This document shows positions 2,725-37,810 of a DNA stretch of 64,000 bases, in pieces (positions within the stretch are counted from its first letter, which is position 1; every line of letters begins with the position of its first letter). The notes beneath the pieces are model-generated. The model worked only from the letters and a program-made list of their open reading frames with translations, did no database searches and was not told the DNA's origin. The position numbers and the translations under genes are program-made. The stretch is from positions 1,966,501-2,030,500 of the forward strand of contig NC_014657.1 of assembly GCF_000166335.1 (NCBI RefSeq), written 5' to 3'. Source of the stretch: Caldicellulosiruptor owensensis OL. GTDB taxonomy: Bacteria; Bacillota; Thermoanaerobacteria; Caldicellulosiruptorales; Caldicellulosiruptoraceae.

Positions 2725-4122
2725 TTAACTCTTGACCTCTTGAATCACAGACAAGTCAACCTTGTTCTGAGGAATACCCTGTTTTCTCTGCTCCCAGAGC
2801 TTATCTGCAACCCTGCCCCAAGCTTCTGAATATTCGATAAGTTTGTTTGCAAGTTCTTCAGCTGTTTCTGTCTCACCACCAATCTGAGTTGGACGTGCAC
2901 CAGATTCTTCAACAATCTTTTTGAGCTTGAGCGGATTGTCTATCATAGGACATGGTCGCAGATGGTTCTCATTAAATGGAATATTCCTCCTGTATGCCAT
3001 AAACAGTGGAGATTTTAAAGCATCCAAAAGCGAACATTCTTTTATATTGACATTTGAAAAATGGATAAATGCGCAAGGTTCAACATCACCGTTTGCATTG
3101 ATATGAAGATATCTTCTTCCGCCTGCAATGCACCCACCAGCAGGTTCTCCATCGTTCCAGAAATCAAGCACAAATATCGGTTTTGACCATCTTATTTCTT
3201 CTATTCTCTTGTACATGTAAGCTCTTTGCTCTGGCGTTGCCATGAAAGAGATATCTGCATCTTTTCCAACAGGGACATAAGTAAAGTACCATCCAAACTT
3301 TGCTCCTTTTTCTATCAAAAAATCTATATATTCATCAGAAGATACCTCTTCAACGTTATATCTGTGATATGTGGTTGAAAATCCAAACACAACGCCTGCT
3401 TCTTTGAGCTTTTCCATTGCAGTTACAACCTTCTTGAATACACCTTGGCCCCGTCTTTCATCTGTTGATTTTTCAAATCCATCTATGCTAATTGCAAATG
3501 CCAAGTTGCCCACTTTTGCAACCTTTTCAATAAAATCATCATCAATCAAAGTAGCATTTGTAAATGACAAAAATACTGTATCCTCATATTTTTCACAGAG
3601 TTTTAGAATATCATCTTTTCTCAGAAGTGGCTCTCCACCTGAGAAGATTATAAAGTAAATTCCAAGTTGCTGAGCCTCTTTTACAACTCTGTCAAGAACT
3701 TCATAGTCAAGTTTTGCAGCCTTGTAGTACTCTCCTGCCCAGCATCCTTTGCAATGCAGGTTACAAGCAGCTGTGGGGTCTATTAATACTGCATAAGGAA
3801 TGTTTATATCATACTTCTTGATAAGCTCAAGTTGTTTGGGAACTCCAATAAAACCAGCATTCAAAAAGAAATTAATAAGAATTCTCTCACGAACTTTTGG
3901 ATTTGTCTCCTTAATAATCCTCATTGCATAGTGATGCCATGAACTGTTAGGGTCGAGAAGATACTTTTTGGCATTTTGGATATACCATTTATCTCTATCA
4001 CGTCTTACTATCTTTTCTGTCAGATCTAAAATCTTGCCTATGTTCTCCTCAGGATTGTTTGCAAGATATCTAATTACCTGCTTTAGAACAGCTTCACCTA
4101 TTATCTTCTTTGGAAGTTCCAT
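2725..4122 (-). CDS. Radical SAM protein with C-terminal cysteine-rich region, function unknown
   Basis: A 465-residue radical SAM enzyme. The cluster-binding CNLHCKGC motif (CxxxCxxC) is preceded by the substrate-domain strand PYAVLIDPTAA and followed by the SAM-binding FSGGEPLLRKDD. Later cysteines (GGCIAGGRRYLHIN, then DVEPCAFIHFSN, ECSLLD, RPCPMIDNP) resemble a SPASM-like auxiliary cluster. The N-terminal 110 residues are helical and unassigned. SPASM-type enzymes commonly modify peptides or mature other enzymes, but no precursor peptide or partner enzyme is next to it, so I do not name a substrate. The start ATG follows AAGGGGTG. It is transcribed away from an ArsR-type regulator across a 166-base shared promoter region. 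Confidence 0.85.
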   Translation of the reverse strand: MELPKKIIGEAVLKQVIRYLANNPEENIGKILDLTEKIVRRDRDKWYIQNAKKYLLDPNSSWHHYAMRIIKETNPKVRERILINFFLNAGFIGVPKQLELIKKYDINIPYAVLIDPTAACNLHCKGCWAGEYYKAAKLDYEVLDRVVKEAQQLGIYFIIFSGGEPLLRKDDILKLCEKYEDTVFLSFTNATLIDDDFIEKVAKVGNLAFAISIDGFEKSTDERRGQGVFKKVVTAMEKLKEAGVVFGFSTTYHRYNVEEVSSDEYIDFLIEKGAKFGWYFTYVPVGKDADISFMATPEQRAYMYKRIEEIRWSKPIFVLDFWNDGEPAGGCIAGGRRYLHINANGDVEPCAFIHFSNVNIKECSLLDALKSPLFMAYRRNIPFNENHLRPCPMIDNPLKLKKIVEESGARPTQIGGETETAEELANKLIEYSEAWGRVADKLWEQRKQGIPQNKVDLSVIQEVKS

Positions 4123-4156
4123 AACTTTTTCACCCCTTCTTTCTTGCTTGACTTTA

Positions 4157-4186
4157 ATTATAACTCTTTGACTTTCAATGTGTCAA
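4157..4186 (-). promoter_or_regulatory. Sigma-A promoter of the radical SAM gene
   Basis: On the minus strand, -35 TTGACA (4181-4186) and -10 TATAAT (4157-4162) are separated by 18 bases, an almost perfect consensus promoter pointing at the radical SAM gene. Confidence 0.75.
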
Positions 4187-4190
4187 TAGT

Positions 4191-4210
4191 TATATATGCA
4201 TATGTGTATA
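4191..4210. promoter_or_regulatory. Candidate ArsR-family operator
   Basis: An AT-rich, imperfectly symmetrical stretch centred on the perfect palindrome ATATGCATAT (4194-4203). It lies just upstream of the radical SAM -35 box and between the two divergent genes. Position and symmetry fit an ArsR-type site; the assignment is inference. Confidence 0.35.
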
Positions 4211-4288
4211 AAAGTATGTTTATTTTTTTTCAAAAACGTGATATAATGATACTTGTCATAATTACTTTTTGAGCGAAGGGGAGCAAAA

Positions 4289-4606
4289 ATGACAAGGCTG
4301 AATGAAATACTATATGCACTTTCTGACACAACAAGGCTCAGAATTTTAAATATATTGGCCCACCGCGAACAAAATGTAAGTAGTCTTGTTCACTTGATTC
4401 AGGAAAGTCAGCCAAAAGTGTCTCGCCACCTTGCTTATCTTAAAAATGTTGGACTTATAGAAGCCAGAAACCATGCGCAAAAAAGAATTTATTCAATAAA
4501 AGAGGATGTGTTTGAAAAATACCCATTCTTAAAAGCTCTCATTCAAGACCTTGCAAAGGTAGATATATTTGCGAATGATTTGAGACTTTTGTCCTCTCTC
4601 AGTTAA
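4289..4606 (+). CDS. ArsR-family winged-helix repressor
   Basis: A 105-residue winged-helix regulator. LSDTTRLRILNILAHRE and the recognition helix region SQPKVSRHLAYLKNVGLIEARN are typical of ArsR/SmtB proteins. It contains no cysteine, so the usual Cys-based metal sites are absent; another ligand or redox cue must be sensed if it is a sensor. A GAAGGGGAG ribosome site precedes the ATG. Being divergent from the radical SAM gene, it probably controls that gene and itself. Confidence 0.85.
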   Translation: MTRLNEILYALSDTTRLRILNILAHREQNVSSLVHLIQESQPKVSRHLAYLKNVGLIEARNHAQKRIYSIKEDVFEKYPFLKALIQDLAKVDIFANDLRLLSSLS

Positions 4607-4631
4607 AAACTGTGCTGTAATAAACAACAAA

Positions 4632-4669
4632 GAAGCCTCCTTGCAAAAATGGGTGAGGAGGTCTTTTTT
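4632..4669 (+). terminator. Intrinsic terminator after the ArsR gene
   Basis: Stem AAGCCTCCT / AGGAGGTCTT with a single bulge, followed by a T6 run on the plus strand. Confidence 0.75.
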
Positions 4670-4683
4670 ATTTTTTGCAGGTC

Positions 4684-4712
4684 TTGATCTTTTTATCCAC
4701 AGACTCTATAAT
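4684..4712 (+). promoter_or_regulatory. Sigma-A promoter of the zinc uptake operon
   Basis: -35 TTGATC (4684-4689), 17-base spacer, -10 TATAAT (4707-4712). The predicted transcript start near 4719 falls just before the Fur-family operator at 4728-4744. Confidence 0.75.
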
Positions 4713-4727
4713 GTTAAACATAGATTG

Positions 4728-4744
4728 TTGCAAATTATTTGCAA
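4728..4744. promoter_or_regulatory. Zur/Fur-type operator (perfect 8-1-8 palindrome)
   Basis: TTGCAAATTATTTGCAA is a perfect inverted repeat with a single central base. It contains the 7-1-7 geometry known for Fur-family boxes. It sits between the predicted transcript start and the ribosome site of zur, so binding would block the whole zur-znuACB operon (inference). Confidence 0.75.
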
Positions 4745-4757
4745 GTAGGTGAAAAGG

Positions 4758-5180
4758 ATGAAGTGTCAAGATATAAAGTTAATTCTAAACTCACACAATA
4801 TAAAAGCCACGCGGCAGAGGGTTGAAATATATAAGGTTTTGCAAAAGGCACAGCAGTGTTTATCTGCTGATGAGATACTGCAAACTCTTGAAGCACAAAA
4901 CCTGAAAATTGACCTTGCAACGATTTACAGAAACCTTGAACTTTTTGTTCAAAATGGTATAGCAGTAAAATCTACTATCAATAGAAAGCATTTTTTCGAA
5001 ATAAAGAAAAGTAGCCATCATCACTATTTTGTATGTATAAAGTGCCATGAAAAAGCCGAAATTGTAGACTGTAAAATAAATCTAATTGAAAAGGAACTAA
5101 ACAAAATGAACTTTAAAATTCTGAATCACAATTTGGAAGTGTATGGGATATGCGATAAATGTTGTGGGAGGGAAGAATAA
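4758..5180 (+). CDS. zur: Fur-family regulator, probably Zur
   Basis: A 140-residue Fur-family metalloregulator: winged helix with the DNA-recognition segment DLATIYRNLELF, a histidine-rich hinge KSSHHHYFVC, and two CxxC pairs (CIKC, CDKC) that bind structural zinc. The downstream zinc transporter genes point to Zur rather than Fur or PerR. I take the ATG at 4758, with AGGTG 6 bases upstream, over the in-frame GTG at 4749. The stop overlaps the znuA start by one base (TAATG), indicating translational coupling. Autoregulation through the 4728-4744 palindrome is likely. Confidence 0.88.
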   Translation: MKCQDIKLILNSHNIKATRQRVEIYKVLQKAQQCLSADEILQTLEAQNLKIDLATIYRNLELFVQNGIAVKSTINRKHFFEIKKSSHHHYFVCIKCHEKAEIVDCKINLIEKELNKMNFKILNHNLEVYGICDKCCGREE

Positions 5181-6043
5181 TGAAGAGGATAAAGCTACTA
5201 TTTATAGTTTTGCTTGTTAGCATTATAGTTTTCTTGAGTGGATGTAAAAATGAAGCTTTAACTACCACCAAAGGCACAGTCTACACTACTATCTATCCTT
5301 TGTATTCTATTACAAAACTTATAGCAGGAGAGAAACTGACAGTTGAAAAGCTTGTAAAGGACGGTGCGGAGATTCACTCATTTGAACCATCTTCACGTGA
5401 CATTGCCAAGCTTACATCAGCAAAAGCAGTGATATATCTCGGACTTGTTGATGAATGGGTTAAAAAACCTCTTGAAGGAACAAGCGTCAAAATTTTTAGA
5501 GCATCTGAAGGTATAGAGTTTATAGATAGTGACCCTCATATATGGACATCACCAAGGCTTTTAAAGAAAATAGCAAGAAACATTGAGTATGCACTGACAA
5601 GCTTAGATCCAAAAAACAAAAGTTATTACCAAGAAAATGCTTCAAAGCTAATTGCAAGTCTTGATAAACTTGATAAGGAATTTTCTTCTGTTGTGAAAAA
5701 CTCAAAAAGAAAAGAATTTCTAATTGCCCATCCCTCTTTTGGATACTTAGCAAGAGATTATCGCCTCAAACAGTATTCAATTACAGGTGTGAATGAAGAA
5801 GAAGAGCCCTCGGCTCAAAAAATGAAAGAGATTGTTCAGCTTATAAAGGAAAAGAACATAAAGTACATTCTTGTTGACCCAAATGAGAATTTGCCTGCTG
5901 TAAAGACCATCGTAAGAGACACTGGTATCAAAATTGTAAACATCTATGGAATGGGAATTGTAAATTCATCTCAAGCAAAAAATGAGACAATACTCAGCCT
6001 TATGGAAAAGAACTTAAAAGCATTTGAGATGGTTTTAAAATAA
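5180..6043 (+). CDS. znuA: Zinc ABC transporter substrate-binding lipoprotein
   Basis: A 287-residue cluster A-I metal-binding protein. A lipoprotein signal peptide ends in the lipobox LSGC (Cys22). Candidate metal ligands are His66 in EIHSFEP, the His of DPHIWTSP, the His of IAHPSFGYL and the acid in VDPNEN. The His/Asp-rich loop seen in many ZnuAs is missing, so Zn and Mn cannot be separated from the sequence of this protein alone; the Zur-type regulator favours zinc. The ATG at 5180 follows GGGAGGGAAG and overlaps the zur stop codon. It acts on the outer face of the membrane and delivers metal to ZnuB. Confidence 0.9.
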   Translation: MKRIKLLFIVLLVSIIVFLSGCKNEALTTTKGTVYTTIYPLYSITKLIAGEKLTVEKLVKDGAEIHSFEPSSRDIAKLTSAKAVIYLGLVDEWVKKPLEGTSVKIFRASEGIEFIDSDPHIWTSPRLLKKIARNIEYALTSLDPKNKSYYQENASKLIASLDKLDKEFSSVVKNSKRKEFLIAHPSFGYLARDYRLKQYSITGVNEEEEPSAQKMKEIVQLIKEKNIKYILVDPNENLPAVKTIVRDTGIKIVNIYGMGIVNSSQAKNETILSLMEKNLKAFEMVLK

Positions 6044-6066
6044 ATGTTGCGGGAGAGAAAACCAGA

Positions 6067-6834
6067 ATGATTGAACTTATAGATGTAAACTTTTATATTG
6101 ACCAGAAAAGAATTCTAAAAGACATAAACCTCAAAGTTCAAAAAGGTGAGTTTGCTGCCATAGTCGGACCAAACGGTTCTGGTAAGACCACACTTTTGAA
6201 TATAATCTCAGGGATTTACACCCCTACAAGTGGAAAAAGACTAATATTTGGCAAACAGCATCTTACCCCGCAGGATAAGCAGAAAATATCATTTGTTCCT
6301 CAAAAGGTCACAAATTTTAACCAGAGCTTCCCTTTGAGCGTTTTTGAAACTGTACTTTTAGGACTGGTGCCAAAAAAGGGATTGTTTCAGAGATTTTCAA
6401 AACAGGACTTAGAAAAAGCCGGAAGCATTTTAGAAAAGCTTCAAATAAAGCAGCTCAAAAACAGGCTCATAGGCCACCTTTCTGGCGGACAACAGCAAAG
6501 AGTGTTTTTAGCCCGCGCGCTCATATCCGACCCACAAATACTTCTTTTGGATGAGCCAACTGTGGGGATAGACAGTCTCTCTGAACAGCTTCTTTTTGAA
6601 ATTCTTGGGGAGAAAAAGAAAGAAGGAACAACAATATTGATGGTAACACACGATGTGTATGCTGTAACTCAACATGCTGATACCATCATCTGTATGGGGG
6701 ATGGTATGATTTATACTGCCTGCAGCGCGAAAGACTTTTCCCCCTCAAAGTTTGAAAGTGTGTACAAATACAAGATTAAGAAAATTGAGCACAGACACTC
6801 TTATACTAAAAAAGAACAAAATAACAGGAAGTGA
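6067..6834 (+). CDS. znuC: Zinc ABC transporter ATP-binding protein
   Basis: A 255-residue ABC ATPase. Walker A is GPNGSGKTT, the signature is LSGGQQQR, Walker B is ILLLDEP and the switch His is in MVTHDVYAV. It is the cytoplasmic motor of the metal importer. It lies 23 bases after znuA and 4 bases before znuB. The C-terminal tail is His/Lys-rich (KKIEHRHSYTKK), which could be a local metal sensor or chance. Confidence 0.92.
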   Translation: MIELIDVNFYIDQKRILKDINLKVQKGEFAAIVGPNGSGKTTLLNIISGIYTPTSGKRLIFGKQHLTPQDKQKISFVPQKVTNFNQSFPLSVFETVLLGLVPKKGLFQRFSKQDLEKAGSILEKLQIKQLKNRLIGHLSGGQQQRVFLARALISDPQILLLDEPTVGIDSLSEQLLFEILGEKKKEGTTILMVTHDVYAVTQHADTIICMGDGMIYTACSAKDFSPSKFESVYKYKIKKIEHRHSYTKKEQNNRK

Positions 6835-31471: not shown

Positions 31472-32224
31472 TTAGCACACCCACGGCCGTTCAAATTTTT
31501 CTATGCTCAGTAAATACTCTGCAAAACTCCGCTGTTTAAACTCAATGTTATCAATCCGCAAAACAGGGAAAATACCTGCTATACTGCTTGTAACAAAACA
31601 TTCGTCCATATTCTTAATATCTTCTATTTTCAAATAAACCTTTTTTACCATGTATCCTAACTCCTCTGATACCCGTATCACATGTTTTCTTACAATGCCA
31701 GGAAGCAGGCCACACAAAATGTGAGGTGTATAAATCATTTTATCTTTCCTAAAAAAAATGTTAGCAAACGCTGCTTCGCATATAAAATTATCTTGATTGA
31801 GAAAAAGACAGCTGTCAAATCCTTTTCTCATGGCGCTTTTTTCTTCAATCAAATTGATACCTATGTTGGTAGTCTTTATGTAGTTTAATATATTAGCTTT
31901 ATCCTTTTTTGCCCGTGCGACTTTTAACTCTAATCCCTTTTTGAAAAGAGCTTTACTATACCTTACTTCCTTTTGTTCCAAAATTAAATTACCATCAAGA
32001 TACAAAATTCTTACCCCACCATAATCTTTTCCACAGCAGGCTATATACCTCTCCAAGGTCTCCCTGAACTTTTCAAATCCTAAATCAAATTCAAGTCCAA
32101 GTATCCAAAAAGCCCTTTTAAATCTCATGAAATGGTCATACAAAAAATGTCCACCCTTTTTGTCAAAATAAATGGTTTCAAAAGGAAATAAACCAAAACT
32201 ATATGAATGAAAGAATTCTTCCAA
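31472..32224 (-). CDS. pabC: Aminotransferase class IV, aminodeoxychorismate lyase-like
   Basis: A 250-residue class IV PLP enzyme. The N-terminus has SFGLFPFETIYFD, the PLP lysine is in NYIKTTNIGIN, and ICEAAFANIFF and CGLLPGIVRKHVI are conserved blocks. As the third gene after pabA and pabB (16-base gap) it is best read as the lyase that converts aminodeoxychorismate to p-aminobenzoate for folate synthesis. Confidence 0.8.
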   Translation of the reverse strand: MEEFFHSYSFGLFPFETIYFDKKGGHFLYDHFMRFKRAFWILGLEFDLGFEKFRETLERYIACCGKDYGGVRILYLDGNLILEQKEVRYSKALFKKGLELKVARAKKDKANILNYIKTTNIGINLIEEKSAMRKGFDSCLFLNQDNFICEAAFANIFFRKDKMIYTPHILCGLLPGIVRKHVIRVSEELGYMVKKVYLKIEDIKNMDECFVTSSIAGIFPVLRIDNIEFKQRSFAEYLLSIEKFERPWVC

Positions 32225-32240
32225 ATTTTAAACCTCCTTC

Positions 32241-33560
32241 TCAGGCAAATGTAAAATGGTTTATCCCCAAAATTTCAAAAAACGGTCTTCCCTTATAGAC
32301 TGTCTCCCACCACTCATCCTCTTCTTGAGAGTCCCATACAATACCGCCGCCAACACTAAAGTATGCTGTGTCACCTTCTACAACAAGCGTTCTGATTGCA
32401 ATGTTAAAATCCATGTTGAAACTGTTTGAGATATAACCAATAGAGCCGCAGTATATTCCTCGCGGACACTTCTCAAGCTCCTCTATAATCTTTATAGCAT
32501 TTAACTTTGGTGCACCTGTTATTGAGCCGCCAGGAAAGGTTGCTTCAATTATCCTTTTCAAATCTACACCGCTTAAAAGATTGCCCTTTATTGTTGAGAC
32601 AAGATGAAAAACTGTTGAATACTCCTCAACATCAAATAATTTTTCAACCTCAATTGACTCTGGAATACATATCTTAGCAAAATCATTTCTCTCAAGGTCA
32701 ACAATCATCAAAAGTTCTGACCTGCACTTTATATTGTTATATAATTCATCTTTCAAAGCCCTGTCTTCTTCCGGGGTTTTCCCGCGCTTAGATGTACCTT
32801 TTATTGGTTTGGTTATGATAGTATCCCCTCTTTTTCTCAAAAAAAGTTCAGGCGACGTTGATATTATTGATGCTTTCGGAAAATTTATATACGCATGGTA
32901 ACAGCCATAGTTTCTCTTTCTGAGGTCAAAATACAAAAAGTCAGGATCAAATACGCCTTTTACAAAAAAACGCTGTGAAAGGTTTACCTGGTAAACATCA
33001 CCTTCAAAAATATAGTCTTTTATTCTTTTTACTGCCTGCATGTATTCTGACTTTTCAAAGTTGCACCAAGCTCTTTCAACCTCAGACTTTTTAAAGCTTG
33101 GCAGAGCAAGGTTTCCACTTTTTAGTATCTCTTCAAATTTCCTTGCCAGGGATTTGGATGTAAAAGAAGCATATGTCTTTTTTTCAAAGTGGTCAATAAC
33201 TATAAAATCTTCAAAATATCCAAAATATGCTTTTGGTGCATAAGATGTATCTTTTTTTCTTTTAACTTCAAAAAGGTCAACACCAAAGTTATAGGAAAAG
33301 TACCCTGCAAATCCCCCATTGAAAACAAAGTCAGAAGGGTCATATTTTCTTACTACTTCGTTTGAAAGTCTGTTTAAATATTCAAAAACATCATCTTTAT
33401 CGCTCAAGAGATAAACTTCCTTAGGATTCAAAAACAAAAAAGAATATCTTCCAAAATTTTTGTTCAACATACTGCTCTCAAGCAAGATTGAAAAATGGCT
33501 TTTCAGATGATAAAAAACTAAAAATGGATCACAAATTTTGTCATATACTACCATCTGCAA
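32241..33560 (-). CDS. pabB: Aminodeoxychorismate synthase component I
   Basis: A 439-residue chorismate-binding enzyme. FAGYFSYNFGVDLFE lies in the N-terminal region, KPIKGTSKRGKTPEED has the PIKGT lysine that separates PabB from anthranilate synthase TrpE (PIAGT), and VDLERNDFAKIC and PGGSITGAPKLNA form the active site. The start is probably TTG at 33560, eight bases after AGGGTGAG; an ATG two codons later is an alternative. Translationally close to pabA. Confidence 0.92.
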   Translation of the reverse strand: MQMVVYDKICDPFLVFYHLKSHFSILLESSMLNKNFGRYSFLFLNPKEVYLLSDKDDVFEYLNRLSNEVVRKYDPSDFVFNGGFAGYFSYNFGVDLFEVKRKKDTSYAPKAYFGYFEDFIVIDHFEKKTYASFTSKSLARKFEEILKSGNLALPSFKKSEVERAWCNFEKSEYMQAVKRIKDYIFEGDVYQVNLSQRFFVKGVFDPDFLYFDLRKRNYGCYHAYINFPKASIISTSPELFLRKRGDTIITKPIKGTSKRGKTPEEDRALKDELYNNIKCRSELLMIVDLERNDFAKICIPESIEVEKLFDVEEYSTVFHLVSTIKGNLLSGVDLKRIIEATFPGGSITGAPKLNAIKIIEELEKCPRGIYCGSIGYISNSFNMDFNIAIRTLVVEGDTAYFSVGGGIVWDSQEEDEWWETVYKGRPFFEILGINHFTFA

Positions 33561-33569
33561 CTTAAATTC

Positions 33570-34133
33570 TCACCCTCTTAAAAAATTTTTAAGCATCAAA
33601 AGTCCATGTTCAGTTGCAATTGATTCAGGATGAAACTGAACTCCCTCTATTTTAAATCTATTATGTCTTATACCCATAACCTCTCCCTCTTTTGAGACTG
33701 CTGTGATGGTAAGCTCTTTTCTGTCAATATCATCTATCACAAGAGAGTGATATCGAACAACACTCAGAGGGCTTTTAAGGTTTTCAAATATTCCTTTTTG
33801 GTCATGAAATATTGTATCAACAATCCCATGCATGGGTCTTTTCGCTTTTTTTAGTTTTGCTCCAAAGTACATGCCAATTGCCTGATGTCCAAGACATACA
33901 CCAAGAATATTTTTTGACTCCTTAAACTTATCTATGATTTCAAACAAAATTTTATCATCAGAAGGTCTTCCCGGACCGGGCGACAGAACAATATGCGTCG
34001 GGTTTAACTTGTACATATTTTCTATAGTAAGCTTGTCACGGTTTATCACTTTAGTATCTACTTTAAGCCTTAAAAAATAATTGTAAAGGTTATATGTAAA
34101 TGAATCAAAATTATCAATAATCAAGACTTTCAT
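33570..34133 (-). CDS. pabA: Aminodeoxychorismate synthase component II (glutamine amidotransferase)
   Basis: A 187-residue class I amidotransferase. LIIDNFDSFTYNLYNY, SPGPGRPSD, the nucleophile in GVCLGHQAIG and the His-Glu in VQFHPESIATEHG are intact. It gives ammonia to PabB. The ATG at 34133 sits 9 bases after GGAGGG. First gene of pabABC; no trp genes are near, and PabA may also serve TrpE. Confidence 0.92.
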   Translation of the reverse strand: MKVLIIDNFDSFTYNLYNYFLRLKVDTKVINRDKLTIENMYKLNPTHIVLSPGPGRPSDDKILFEIIDKFKESKNILGVCLGHQAIGMYFGAKLKKAKRPMHGIVDTIFHDQKGIFENLKSPLSVVRYHSLVIDDIDRKELTITAVSKEGEVMGIRHNRFKIEGVQFHPESIATEHGLLMLKNFLRG

Positions 34134-34366
34134 TCTCAAAATCCCTCCTTTTTTAAAAAAAACCTTTTTGCTCAGTATCCTTTTTGATACTTTATAACAT
34201 AAAAGTGCATTCTTGTACTCCTTTACTTTTCACTATTATACTATAACTTGCAAAGGTGCACATCAATATTTTGCAACTTTCTTTTAAAATTGAGATGTTC
34301 ACAAATTTCAAAAAAGGATTATAATTTTACTTACCCGAAATTTTTGAAAGGAGTTGAAAAGGTAAA

Positions 34367-35488
34367 ATGGCAAAATCAAAGGTATATTTTACAGATTTCA
34401 AAACCAAGCCCGGACTTAATATGCTTGACAAGCTTGAAAACCTTGTAAAAAAAGCAGGAATTGAAACAATCAATTTTAAAAATAAGTTTGTTGCAATCAA
34501 AGTCCATTTTGGAGAACCAGGAAATCTGGCATATATTAGACCAAACTATGTTGCAAGGATTGTAAAGCTTATCAAAAGTCTTGGCGGCAAACCTTTTGTC
34601 ACAGACGCAAACACTCTCTACACTGGAAGAAGAAGCAACGCTTTAGACCATTTAGAAGCAGCTTACGAAAATGGATTCAATCCGCTTGTGCTTGGCTGTC
34701 ATGTGATAATTGCAGATGGTCTTAAAGGAACAGAGTACAGAGAGATTGAGGTAAACCTCAAACATACACAAAAAGCAAAGATTGGTTCTGCCATTGCAGA
34801 TGCTGACATTATAATCTCAATGAACCACTTCAAAGGTCATGAGATGACTGGTTTTGGCGGTGCTATTAAAAATATTGGAATGGGCTCTGGTTCTCGTGGT
34901 GGGAAGCTTTTTATGCACTCATCATCAAAGCCGGTTATAAAGGTTTCAAAATGTGTCGGGTGTGGAATGTGTGTCAAAAGCTGTGCGCAGCTTGCTATAA
35001 CTTTGAATGAAAAGAAAAAGGCAGTCATTGACTATGAAAAGTGTGTTGGGTGTGGTCAGTGCGTTGCTGTGTGTCAGTTTGGCGCAGCAACTGTCAAGTG
35101 GGATGAGGCAGCATCGATTGCAAGTGAGAAGATTGCTGAGTATACTTATGCAGTGCTCAAAGACAAGCCTAATTTTCATATAAATTTTATAATGAACATT
35201 TCTCCTGACTGTGACTGCTGGTCACACAACGATATTCCTATAGCACCTGATATTGGTATTGCAGCATCATTTGACCCTGTTGCACTTGACAAGGCATGTG
35301 TTGACCTTGTAAATAGCTCTACATTTATCCCTGCTGGTTCTATATTTGAGAAAGCAAAGCACATAGAAGTTGATGGCAAGATTGACAGGTTCAAAAGTAT
35401 CCATCCCGACACAGACTGGAGAGTTGCACTAAAACATGCTCAAGAGATTGGACTTGGAAGTTTGGAGTATGAGCTGATCAAAGTTTAA
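34367..35488 (+). CDS. DUF362 ferredoxin-type Fe-S protein
   Basis: A 373-residue protein with a DUF362 domain (KVHFGEPGNLAYIRP, FVTDANTLYTGRR, ISMNHFKGHEMTGFGGAIKNIGMG). It is split by two 4Fe-4S motifs, CVGCGMCVKSCAQ and CVGCGQCVAVCQ, which lack the usual proline after the fourth cysteine. The C-terminal part resumes the DUF362 fold (ISPDCDCWS, IGIAASFDPVALD). DUF362 proteins are widespread in anaerobes with unknown redox function. It is monocistronic with a terminator behind it. Confidence 0.82.
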   Translation: MAKSKVYFTDFKTKPGLNMLDKLENLVKKAGIETINFKNKFVAIKVHFGEPGNLAYIRPNYVARIVKLIKSLGGKPFVTDANTLYTGRRSNALDHLEAAYENGFNPLVLGCHVIIADGLKGTEYREIEVNLKHTQKAKIGSAIADADIIISMNHFKGHEMTGFGGAIKNIGMGSGSRGGKLFMHSSSKPVIKVSKCVGCGMCVKSCAQLAITLNEKKKAVIDYEKCVGCGQCVAVCQFGAATVKWDEAASIASEKIAEYTYAVLKDKPNFHINFIMNISPDCDCWSHNDIPIAPDIGIAASFDPVALDKACVDLVNSSTFIPAGSIFEKAKHIEVDGKIDRFKSIHPDTDWRVALKHAQEIGLGSLEYELIKV

Positions 35489-36251: not shown

Positions 36252-36280
36252 TTGCATGCTTTCTTTTCCTTTGGTATCAT
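36252..36280 (+). promoter_or_regulatory. Promoter of the riboswitch-controlled gene
   Basis: -35 TTGCAT (36252-36257), 17-base spacer, -10 TATCAT (36275-36280). The predicted start near 36287 is just before the riboswitch P1 stem. Confidence 0.6.
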
Positions 36281-36300
36281 AATGTTATCATAATATCAAA

Positions 36301-36431
36301 AAAGCTGAATTCCTGTGGTAATATCCACAGGATAGGGGGGACCCACTTTTTTGGGGTGAATCAAGGTATTTTGCCTTGTAGGGCAAATATACCCTTTCTG
36401 CCCGAACCCGTCAGCTAACCCCCGAAGCTTT
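36301..36431 (+). ncRNA. c-di-AMP riboswitch (ydaO/yuaA class)
   Basis: The conserved ydaO blocks occur in order: GGGGGGACCCA, TTTTTTGGGGTGAATC, a CAAGG/CCTTG stem, AGGGC, then GCCCGAACCCGTCAGCTAACC. The P1 helix pairs AAAGCT (36301-36306) with AGCTTT (36426-36431). A CCTGTGG/CCACAGG hairpin fills the variable arm. In known members c-di-AMP binding lowers expression of the downstream gene. The ribosome site of the next gene (GGGAGG, 36436-36441) begins only five bases after P1, and I see no terminator in between. Confidence 0.94.
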
Positions 36432-36451
36432 GAAAGGGAGGTATGTATCTT

Positions 36452-37810
36452 ATGAATGTCAAATTTAATCAAAAGACTCACATTCTTGAGATTGAGTATC
36501 AGTTCAGAGATGTTGAAGAACCAAATCTTTTCAGGAACATCTATCCTTATAATGAAGTACCAAGGCTTGTTTTCAACCACAGAATTGTGCCCATGAACGT
36601 CCCAGAAAGGCTTTATATTACCGACACAACCTTCAGAGATGGCCAGCAGTCGCGTTCGCCTTACACTGTTGAGCAAATCTGTAGAATTTATGACTACTTG
36701 CATGAGCTTGACAATGGAAGTGGTGTAATACTTCACACAGAGTTTTTTGTGTACTCAAAACAGGATAAGGAAGCAGTCTTAAAGTGCTTAGAAAAAGGAT
36801 ATGATTTTCCAAAGGTGACTGCCTGGATTCGTGCAAAAAAAGAGGACTTTGAAATTGTAAAAAACCTTGGTATCAAAGAGACTGGAATACTTGTGTCATG
36901 TTCCGACTATCACATTTTTAAAAAGCTCAAAATGACACGAAGCCAGGCATTGAAACAGTATTTAGAAATTGTATCGTCAGCTTTAGAAGCAGGAATAATT
37001 CCAAGATGCCATTTTGAAGACATCACACGCGCAGACTTTTACGGATTTGTTCTGCCATTTATAAATGAGCTTATGAAGCTTTCAAAAGAGGCAAAGATGC
37101 CTGTAAAAATCAGAGCCTGTGATACTTTAGGACTTGGCTCACCCATACCTGGTGTTGCTCTGCCAAGAAGTGTTCCGCAGATAATCTATGGAATCGTAAA
37201 CTATGGTGAAGTGCCTTCTGAGTGGCTTGAGTGGCATGGTCATAACGATTTTTATAAAGCAGTTATAAATTCAACAATGGCATGGCTTTACGGTGCTTCA
37301 ATGGTCAACACATCTCTTTTGGGAATAGGCGAACGTACGGGTAATACCCCATTAGAAGCAATGGTAATGGAATACATTCAGATAAGAGGAACAGCAGATG
37401 GCATGAACGTTGCTGTCATCTCTGAAATTGCAGATTATTTCAAAAAAGAGATTGGATATGAAATTCCACCAATGACACCATTTGTTGGTGACAACTTTAA
37501 TGCAACAAGAGCTGGAATTCATGCAGATGGACTTATGAAGGATGAGGAAATATACAATATTTTTGATACAGGAAAAATCTTGGGCAGACCTCCAAAAGTT
37601 ATAATTGATGCCTACTCAGGCATTGCTGGAATTGTTATTTGGATTAACAGGTACTTTAAAGATAATGGAATTGATTTGCAGGTTGATAAAAAAGATCCAA
37701 GAGTTCAAAAAGTAAAAGAATGGGTTGACTCCCAATATCAAAGTGGCAGAAATACATCAATAAGTGATGATGAGTTGAAAGAGGTTGTAAAAGAGGTATT
37801 TGGAATATAA
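36452..37810 (+). CDS. Re-type citrate synthase-like enzyme (isopropylmalate synthase superfamily)
   Basis: A 452-residue HMGL/DRE-TIM enzyme. ITDTTFRDGQQSRSPYT has the metal- and catalysis-linked DTTFRDGQQ. HFEDITRADFYG, KIRACDTLGLG and EWHGHNDFYKAVINSTMAWLYG contain the metal-binding HxH-type histidine, and LLGIGERTGNTPLEAMV ends the barrel. This pattern and length match the Re-citrate synthases of clostridia and related anaerobes rather than LeuA, NifV or CimA, and no leucine genes are near. It would form citrate from acetyl-CoA and oxaloacetate, leading to 2-oxoglutarate and glutamate. The ATG at 36452 is 10 bases after GGGAGG; the ATG at 36443 is too close to that site. Confidence 0.8.
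   Translation: MNVKFNQKTHILEIEYQFRDVEEPNLFRNIYPYNEVPRLVFNHRIVPMNVPERLYITDTTFRDGQQSRSPYTVEQICRIYDYLHELDNGSGVILHTEFFVYSKQDKEAVLKCLEKGYDFPKVTAWIRAKKEDFEIVKNLGIKETGILVSCSDYHIFKKLKMTRSQALKQYLEIVSSALEAGIIPRCHFEDITRADFYGFVLPFINELMKLSKEAKMPVKIRACDTLGLGSPIPGVALPRSVPQIIYGIVNYGEVPSEWLEWHGHNDFYKAVINSTMAWLYGASMVNTSLLGIGERTGNTPLEAMVMEYIQIRGTADGMNVAVISEIADYFKKEIGYEIPPMTPFVGDNFNATRAGIHADGLMKDEEIYNIFDTGKILGRPPKVIIDAYSGIAGIVIWINRYFKDNGIDLQVDKKDPRVQKVKEWVDSQYQSGRNTSISDDELKEVVKEVFGI

Follow-up and report, generated by a model that had tools for sequence, protein, structure and literature searches.

A c-di-AMP riboswitch precedes a second Re-citrate synthase-family gene in Caldicellulosiruptor owensensis and may tie it to an osmolyte regulon

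Caldicellulosiruptor owensensis OL, a thermophilic cellulose degrader, carries two genes of the Re-citrate synthase family, and one of them, copy A, lies directly behind a c-di-AMP riboswitch. We consider it probable, if not assured, that this RNA is an OFF-riboswitch controlling a dedicated second Re-citrate synthase within an osmolyte regulon. The best reading of the sequences is a small c-di-AMP-repressed regulon that would comprise copy A, an enzyme forming beta-glutamate, and a cell-wall hydrolase. The window, the whole stretch of DNA analysed, spans 64,000 nucleotides of contig NC_014657.1 (positions 1,966,501 to 2,030,500). Coordinates without a genome or locus handle refer to the window, except those of copy B and its neighbors, which lie elsewhere in the genome.

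The aptamer (RF00379, ydaO/yuaA leader) occupies positions 36293 to 36445 on the plus strand. A sequence-only reading of the window had called a ydaO-class riboswitch here, and comparison with the Rfam model bears this out. The match covers the complete model (positions 1–134 of 134) immediately 5′ of the enzyme gene, and its 98.6 bits (E 3.8e-22) are far over the gathering score of 38. The core blocks GGGGUGAAUC and CCCGAACCCGUCAGCUAACC are both intact. A second aptamer model, R1, was built from 22 sequences. It gives 121 bits at this site and no match elsewhere in the window, support that is not independent because the window aptamer is among the 22. No Na+ riboswitch exceeded the Rfam threshold anywhere in the window. 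A likely promoter, read from the sequence as TTGCAT - 17 nt - TATCAT, lies just upstream (36252 to 36280, plus strand). It is not among the sites listed by the consensus rule of the promoter scan; many sequences of the genus alignment have a TTGCxA-N17-TAT(C/G)AT block at this position.

The 3′ tail of the aptamer forms a pseudoknot that reaches the ribosome-binding site. Its 5′ strand, the anti-Shine-Dalgarno CCCUUUC (36392 to 36398), pairs with GAAAGGG (36432 to 36438), and this 3′ strand overlaps the Shine-Dalgarno sequence GGGAGG (36436 to 36441), 10 nt before the ATG at 36452, all on the plus strand. Covariation and the genus alignment both bear on the pairing. Across the 22 aptamers, 95% of cells are paired and all 7 pairs show changes on both sides. 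The covariation of 0.42 is higher than in every shuffle (0.24) and every slid control (0.29 or less). The block GAAAGGGAGG, at the pseudoknot 3′ strand and Shine-Dalgarno, is identical in 11 of the 12 genus genomes. No terminator was found between the aptamer and the copy A start, unlike in both aminomutase leaders (see below), where strong intrinsic terminators are present. Since the pseudoknot covers the Shine-Dalgarno and no terminator precedes the start, a translational OFF switch acting by Shine-Dalgarno occlusion is the straightforward prediction for this leader; we infer both the response to ligand and its direction. The distance from aptamer to start is 66–271 nt in 29 of 32 inspected RF00379 leaders. 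Copy A has one of the three short leaders, and another belongs to the NlpC/P60 gene of the same genome. A diadenylate cyclase is encoded in 12 of 12 genus genomes.

The riboswitch precedes copy A in all 12 genomes of the genus, directly in 11, so a survey of relatives, as the earlier reading had suggested, finds the arrangement kept throughout. These 11 genomes show hardly any variation in the core, the pseudoknot, or the distance to the start, although sequence further upstream has diverged. Such constancy is hard to reconcile with an aptamer that is a leftover beside copy A, its regulation lost. We regard that explanation as highly improbable, even though in one genome, G007, an insertion splits the switch from a gene that is still under purifying selection. 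The G007 insertion has uncoupled the gene from its switch naturally: about 1.7 kb parts a complete riboswitch from copy A (G007:C1, L159 4581-6342, minus strand). A 492 aa ORF within it looks transposase-like by eye and has no Pfam match.

The gene behind the aptamer (36452 to 37810, plus strand) encodes a 452 aa enzyme that we place in the Re-citrate synthase family from its Pfam match, curated cut-offs, a tree, motifs, and dN/dS. An alternative start, ATG 36443, would give a 455 aa product (ORF 36443-37810) with no gap after the aptamer. ATG 36452 (MNVKF...) is more likely the conserved start, because MNVKF is kept, the length is 452 codons in 12 of 12 congeners, and GGGAGG lies 10 nt upstream. 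Copy A matches PF00682 (HMGL-like) with 115 bits. Its scores fall far below the curated cut-offs for NifV (159 versus 463 bits), LeuA (109 versus 599), and citramalate synthase (65 versus 450), and the cut-offs for archaeal homocitrate and isopropylmalate synthases are likewise far above it. All curated cut-offs therefore rule out copy A as LeuA, NifV, or CimA. LeuA and CimA-like proteins of the same genome are encoded by separate genes at 419-423 kb of that genome. Copy A stands apart from them on the tree, though LeuA and CimA have terminal branches of great length; the grouping with LeuA or CimA that could have overturned the original call is seen neither there nor in the cut-offs. The active-site motifs DxxxRDGQQ and HGHND are present and partly common to LeuA and CimA, in which Asp61, Arg65, Asp66, His265, and His267 of copy A also occur. 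A dN/dS of about 0.02 across the genus indicates strong purifying selection.

Genomic context points the same way. Si-citrate synthase (PF00285) was detected in none of the 12 genus genomes, whereas 13 of the 14 control genomes have it. Among 80 homologues drawn from named records, 32 have an aconitase gene immediately after them, as do several others. The description of a DRE-TIM enzyme with Re-citrate synthase features thus stands, given the PF00682 match, the fit to the family, and a genus lacking Si-citrate synthase. Re-citrate synthases fall into two divergent groups (PMC12016533), and our tree contains no biochemically proven Re-citrate synthase by name. Membership of copy A in the family is for this reason probable rather than proven, with contextual support.

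The second gene of the genome, copy B (G000:C1:433523-434875), is 71% identical to copy A and has no riboswitch. Downstream of it lie an aconitase gene (438794-439996) and, nearby, a gene of the isocitrate/isopropylmalate dehydrogenase family (440796-441770). This aconitase/isocitrate dehydrogenase context belongs to copy B and to other homologues, not to copy A itself, and in other genomes aconitase directly follows a B-type or single copy (L157, L141, L232). Copy B thereby looks like the housekeeping citrate synthase. It had been proposed that c-di-AMP gates the entry of carbon into citrate. That cannot apply to all of the carbon, because an unswitched copy sits near the genes for the next steps. 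Several congeners contain, in addition, either a Re-citrate synthase-like third ORF that is shorter (about 335 aa, with 43-47% identity) or fragments of the C-terminus (63%), at G009:C1:2604514, G005:C1:2730845, G001:C1:540508, G008:C1:564144, and other loci.

Copies A and B fall into separate clades of the tree. The A clade (SH-aLRT 99) holds the copies A of the genus and of its sister genus (G012), a decayed copy from another family of the phylum (G048), and four MAG sequences. The most marked difference between copy A and its relatives is found at positions 97-98, which are Leu-His in 13 of 13 copies A of the family. Among 112 other homologues, 107 have Arg97 and 109 have Gln98. His98 corresponds in the alignment to the Glu in the LeuA-type IEAGF strand, an active-site position in the superfamily. 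Because the Leu97-His98 pair lies at such a position, copy A may differ in kinetics, feedback, or specificity. A stronger version of this idea is that copy A has been neofunctionalised and makes another 2-hydroxyacid for stress, under c-di-AMP control still but no longer yielding citrate. The fixation of Arg97Leu and Gln98His in the family and their near absence elsewhere would fit such a change. We nevertheless think it quite unlikely, as the other catalytic motifs are intact, identity to copy B remains high, and the decayed G048 copy has Arg-Gln at 97-98 in the same operon place. A citrate-forming copy A remains our preferred reading.

The genome contains three RF00379 riboswitches, located before copy A, an aminomutase gene, and a gene for an SH3/NlpC-P60 hydrolase. 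The aminomutase scores 668 bits against TIGR04368 (glutamate 2,3-aminomutase), over the cut-off of 650; homologues from G012 and G048, at 644 and 625 bits, are just below it. The protein has Lys343 and Asn380 where lysine 2,3-aminomutase 2A5H has Asp. In this enzyme family, these two sites have a role in choosing lysine as the substrate. A riboswitch is present at 25 of 45 distinct loci encoding the Lys/Asn-type aminomutase, this family included, and absent from the remaining 20; it is found at 0 of 8 lysine-type loci. The sequence-only reading had noted that ydaO-class RNAs mostly control osmolyte, potassium, and cell-wall genes. With a second RF00379 on glutamate 2,3-aminomutase, and both genes sharing a row in two genomes (see below), copy A is no departure from this rule.

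The pairing of a c-di-AMP riboswitch with a Lys/Asn-type aminomutase spans many clostridial families (L160-L209, L239), and outside this family it commonly occurs without copy A. In G040, a distant KamA-family homologue (34%; L106 633-1415) lies just upstream of the riboswitch of the aminomutase. In two genomes that belong to a single family (G027:C12:44882-45250 and G013:C37:42548-42937), two c-di-AMP aptamers stand in tandem, about 120-140 nt apart, before a gene that encodes about 366 aa. Divergent c-di-AMP riboswitches on opposite strands occur at G058:C1:597226-597999, in a genome with nine of these RNAs.

Gene order in two other genomes connects the aminomutase to copy A. In the sister genus G012 (L149), a single riboswitch (3138-3280) stands at the head of an operon in which the aminomutase gene (3476-4687) is followed by copy A (4725-6101). 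The order of riboswitch, aminomutase, and copy A is the same in G048, where copy A is decayed. These two arrangements indicate that the three elements belong together. The simplest history would start from a single operon whose halves later separated, an aptamer standing before each; that the change ran this way is likewise our reading of the gene orders. The decayed G048 copy (L150 2967-4120, minus strand) is interrupted by several stops and has lost an internal segment at a repeated DFY motif.

The link between the riboswitch and the enzyme is specific to this lineage. Within the available flanks, a riboswitch was found at 0/80 other homologues, 0/13 B copies, and 0/3 further homologues, and the absence from all 80 leads us to reject a general association of Re-citrate synthases with c-di-AMP riboswitches. 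Neither a riboswitch nor an aminomutase accompanies the four MAG homologues in the A clade. We thus also reject a strict tie between this clade and the aminomutase; its link to beta-glutamate does not hold everywhere.

From these observations we propose the following model. At high c-di-AMP, signaling osmotic or K+ sufficiency, the aptamer would fold, CCCUUUC would pair with GAAAGGG, and the buried Shine-Dalgarno would block translation. Osmotic stress would lower c-di-AMP and so allow synthesis of copy A, whose citrate would come on top of the basal supply from unswitched copy B. Aconitase and isocitrate dehydrogenase would take this extra citrate to 2-oxoglutarate, and glutamate would be formed from that. 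Low c-di-AMP would also let transcription of glutamate 2,3-aminomutase proceed past the sister riboswitch, and the enzyme would convert glutamate to beta-glutamate, an osmolyte that is metabolised poorly. What the enzymes do, the build-up of beta-glutamate, and the role of the regulon in the cell are all deduced here from sequence.

Osmotic or K+ status had been linked to the glutamate pool in the sequence-only reading. The osmotic link to glutamate is favored by our analysis, but the likely end product shifts to beta-glutamate, since the aminomutase has an RF00379 riboswitch of its own and, in two other genomes, stands in one row with riboswitch and copy A. The switched copy A and the switched aminomutase look like an overlooked pathway for salt or sugar stress. 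More tentatively, as a proposal we hold with some reserve, c-di-AMP may control both ends of this pathway, copy A with its altered active site and the aminomutase, through two RF00379 riboswitches whose expression platforms differ, Shine-Dalgarno occlusion for the one and termination for the other, which would make beta-glutamate the unrecognised compatible solute of Caldicellulosiruptor. The same RNA and enzyme could also serve another purpose, in which the overall supply of citrate, and of alpha-glutamate as a counter-ion for K+, is what the riboswitch adjusts and beta-glutamate has no special role. In Bacillus subtilis, glutamate has known links to both K+ and c-di-AMP (PMC8822347). This explanation seems unlikely to us: it is copy B, unswitched, that lies near the aconitase/isocitrate dehydrogenase region, and the switch is common to glutamate 2,3-aminomutase, with an operon-like row in two other genomes.

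The RNA class and the enzyme families are already known, and the proposed regulon resembles several described systems. As in other RF00379 riboswitches, the full aptamer and pseudoknot are matched, and the sister copies sit on usual targets, an NlpC/P60 hydrolase and an osmolyte enzyme. What differs is the target, a citrate synthase paralogue, and an aptamer that itself covers the Shine-Dalgarno. The closest parallel for the aminomutase is the tandem Na+/c-di-AMP riboswitch on ablA of Dehalobacter, where a c-di-AMP riboswitch acts on an aminomutase for a beta-amino-acid osmolyte, as is predicted here (PMC9337991). In vitro, c-di-AMP terminates transcription in that lysine 2,3-aminomutase leader. 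Both kinds of riboswitch have been described for ablA, and the Na+ kind for eam as well (PMC9337991). Dehalobacter combines lysine 2,3-aminomutase with a Na+ switch; in C. owensensis the enzyme is a glutamate 2,3-aminomutase and a second switch lies on citrate synthase. For carbon supply, the precedent is pyruvate carboxylase, which c-di-AMP inhibits in both Listeria and Lactococcus and controls through DarB in Bacillus, limiting carbon for glutamate as we predict here (PMC8822347). That control is on protein activity one step upstream, at oxaloacetate, whereas ours would be RNA control of citrate synthase synthesis. Copy A also resembles the Re-citrate synthases of Clostridium kluyveri, Syntrophus, Clostridioides, and Heliomicrobium, homocitrate synthase-related DRE-TIM enzymes from hosts without Si-citrate synthase (PMC12016533). 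It differs from them in being duplicated, riboswitch-controlled, and marked by Leu97-His98.

Beta-glutamate is established as a slowly turned-over osmolyte in methanogens, where it is not made by an aminomutase, and is known from few bacteria (PMC1224877). C. owensensis has been reported to lack known compatible-solute pathways, its osmoadaptation left unexplained (PMC8557575), and the main texts of that study and of one on C. bescii osmotolerance (PMC7071700) do not mention the aminomutase or the riboswitches. If the model is true, the regulon would fill this gap, predicting solute, route, and signal, in a genus whose industrial use is limited by osmotolerance. It would also mean that c-di-AMP acts on central carbon metabolism not just by way of proteins such as pyruvate carboxylase but also by a riboswitch, at the citrate synthase step. 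In the literature searched, we found no tie of a c-di-AMP riboswitch to a Re-citrate synthase and none to glutamate 2,3-aminomutase specifically, though either association may have been noticed earlier.

Elsewhere in the window, an apparent pabA-pabB-aminotransferase-like cluster (31472-34139, minus strand) lies beside a gene for a DUF362 ferredoxin-domain protein (34367-35488).
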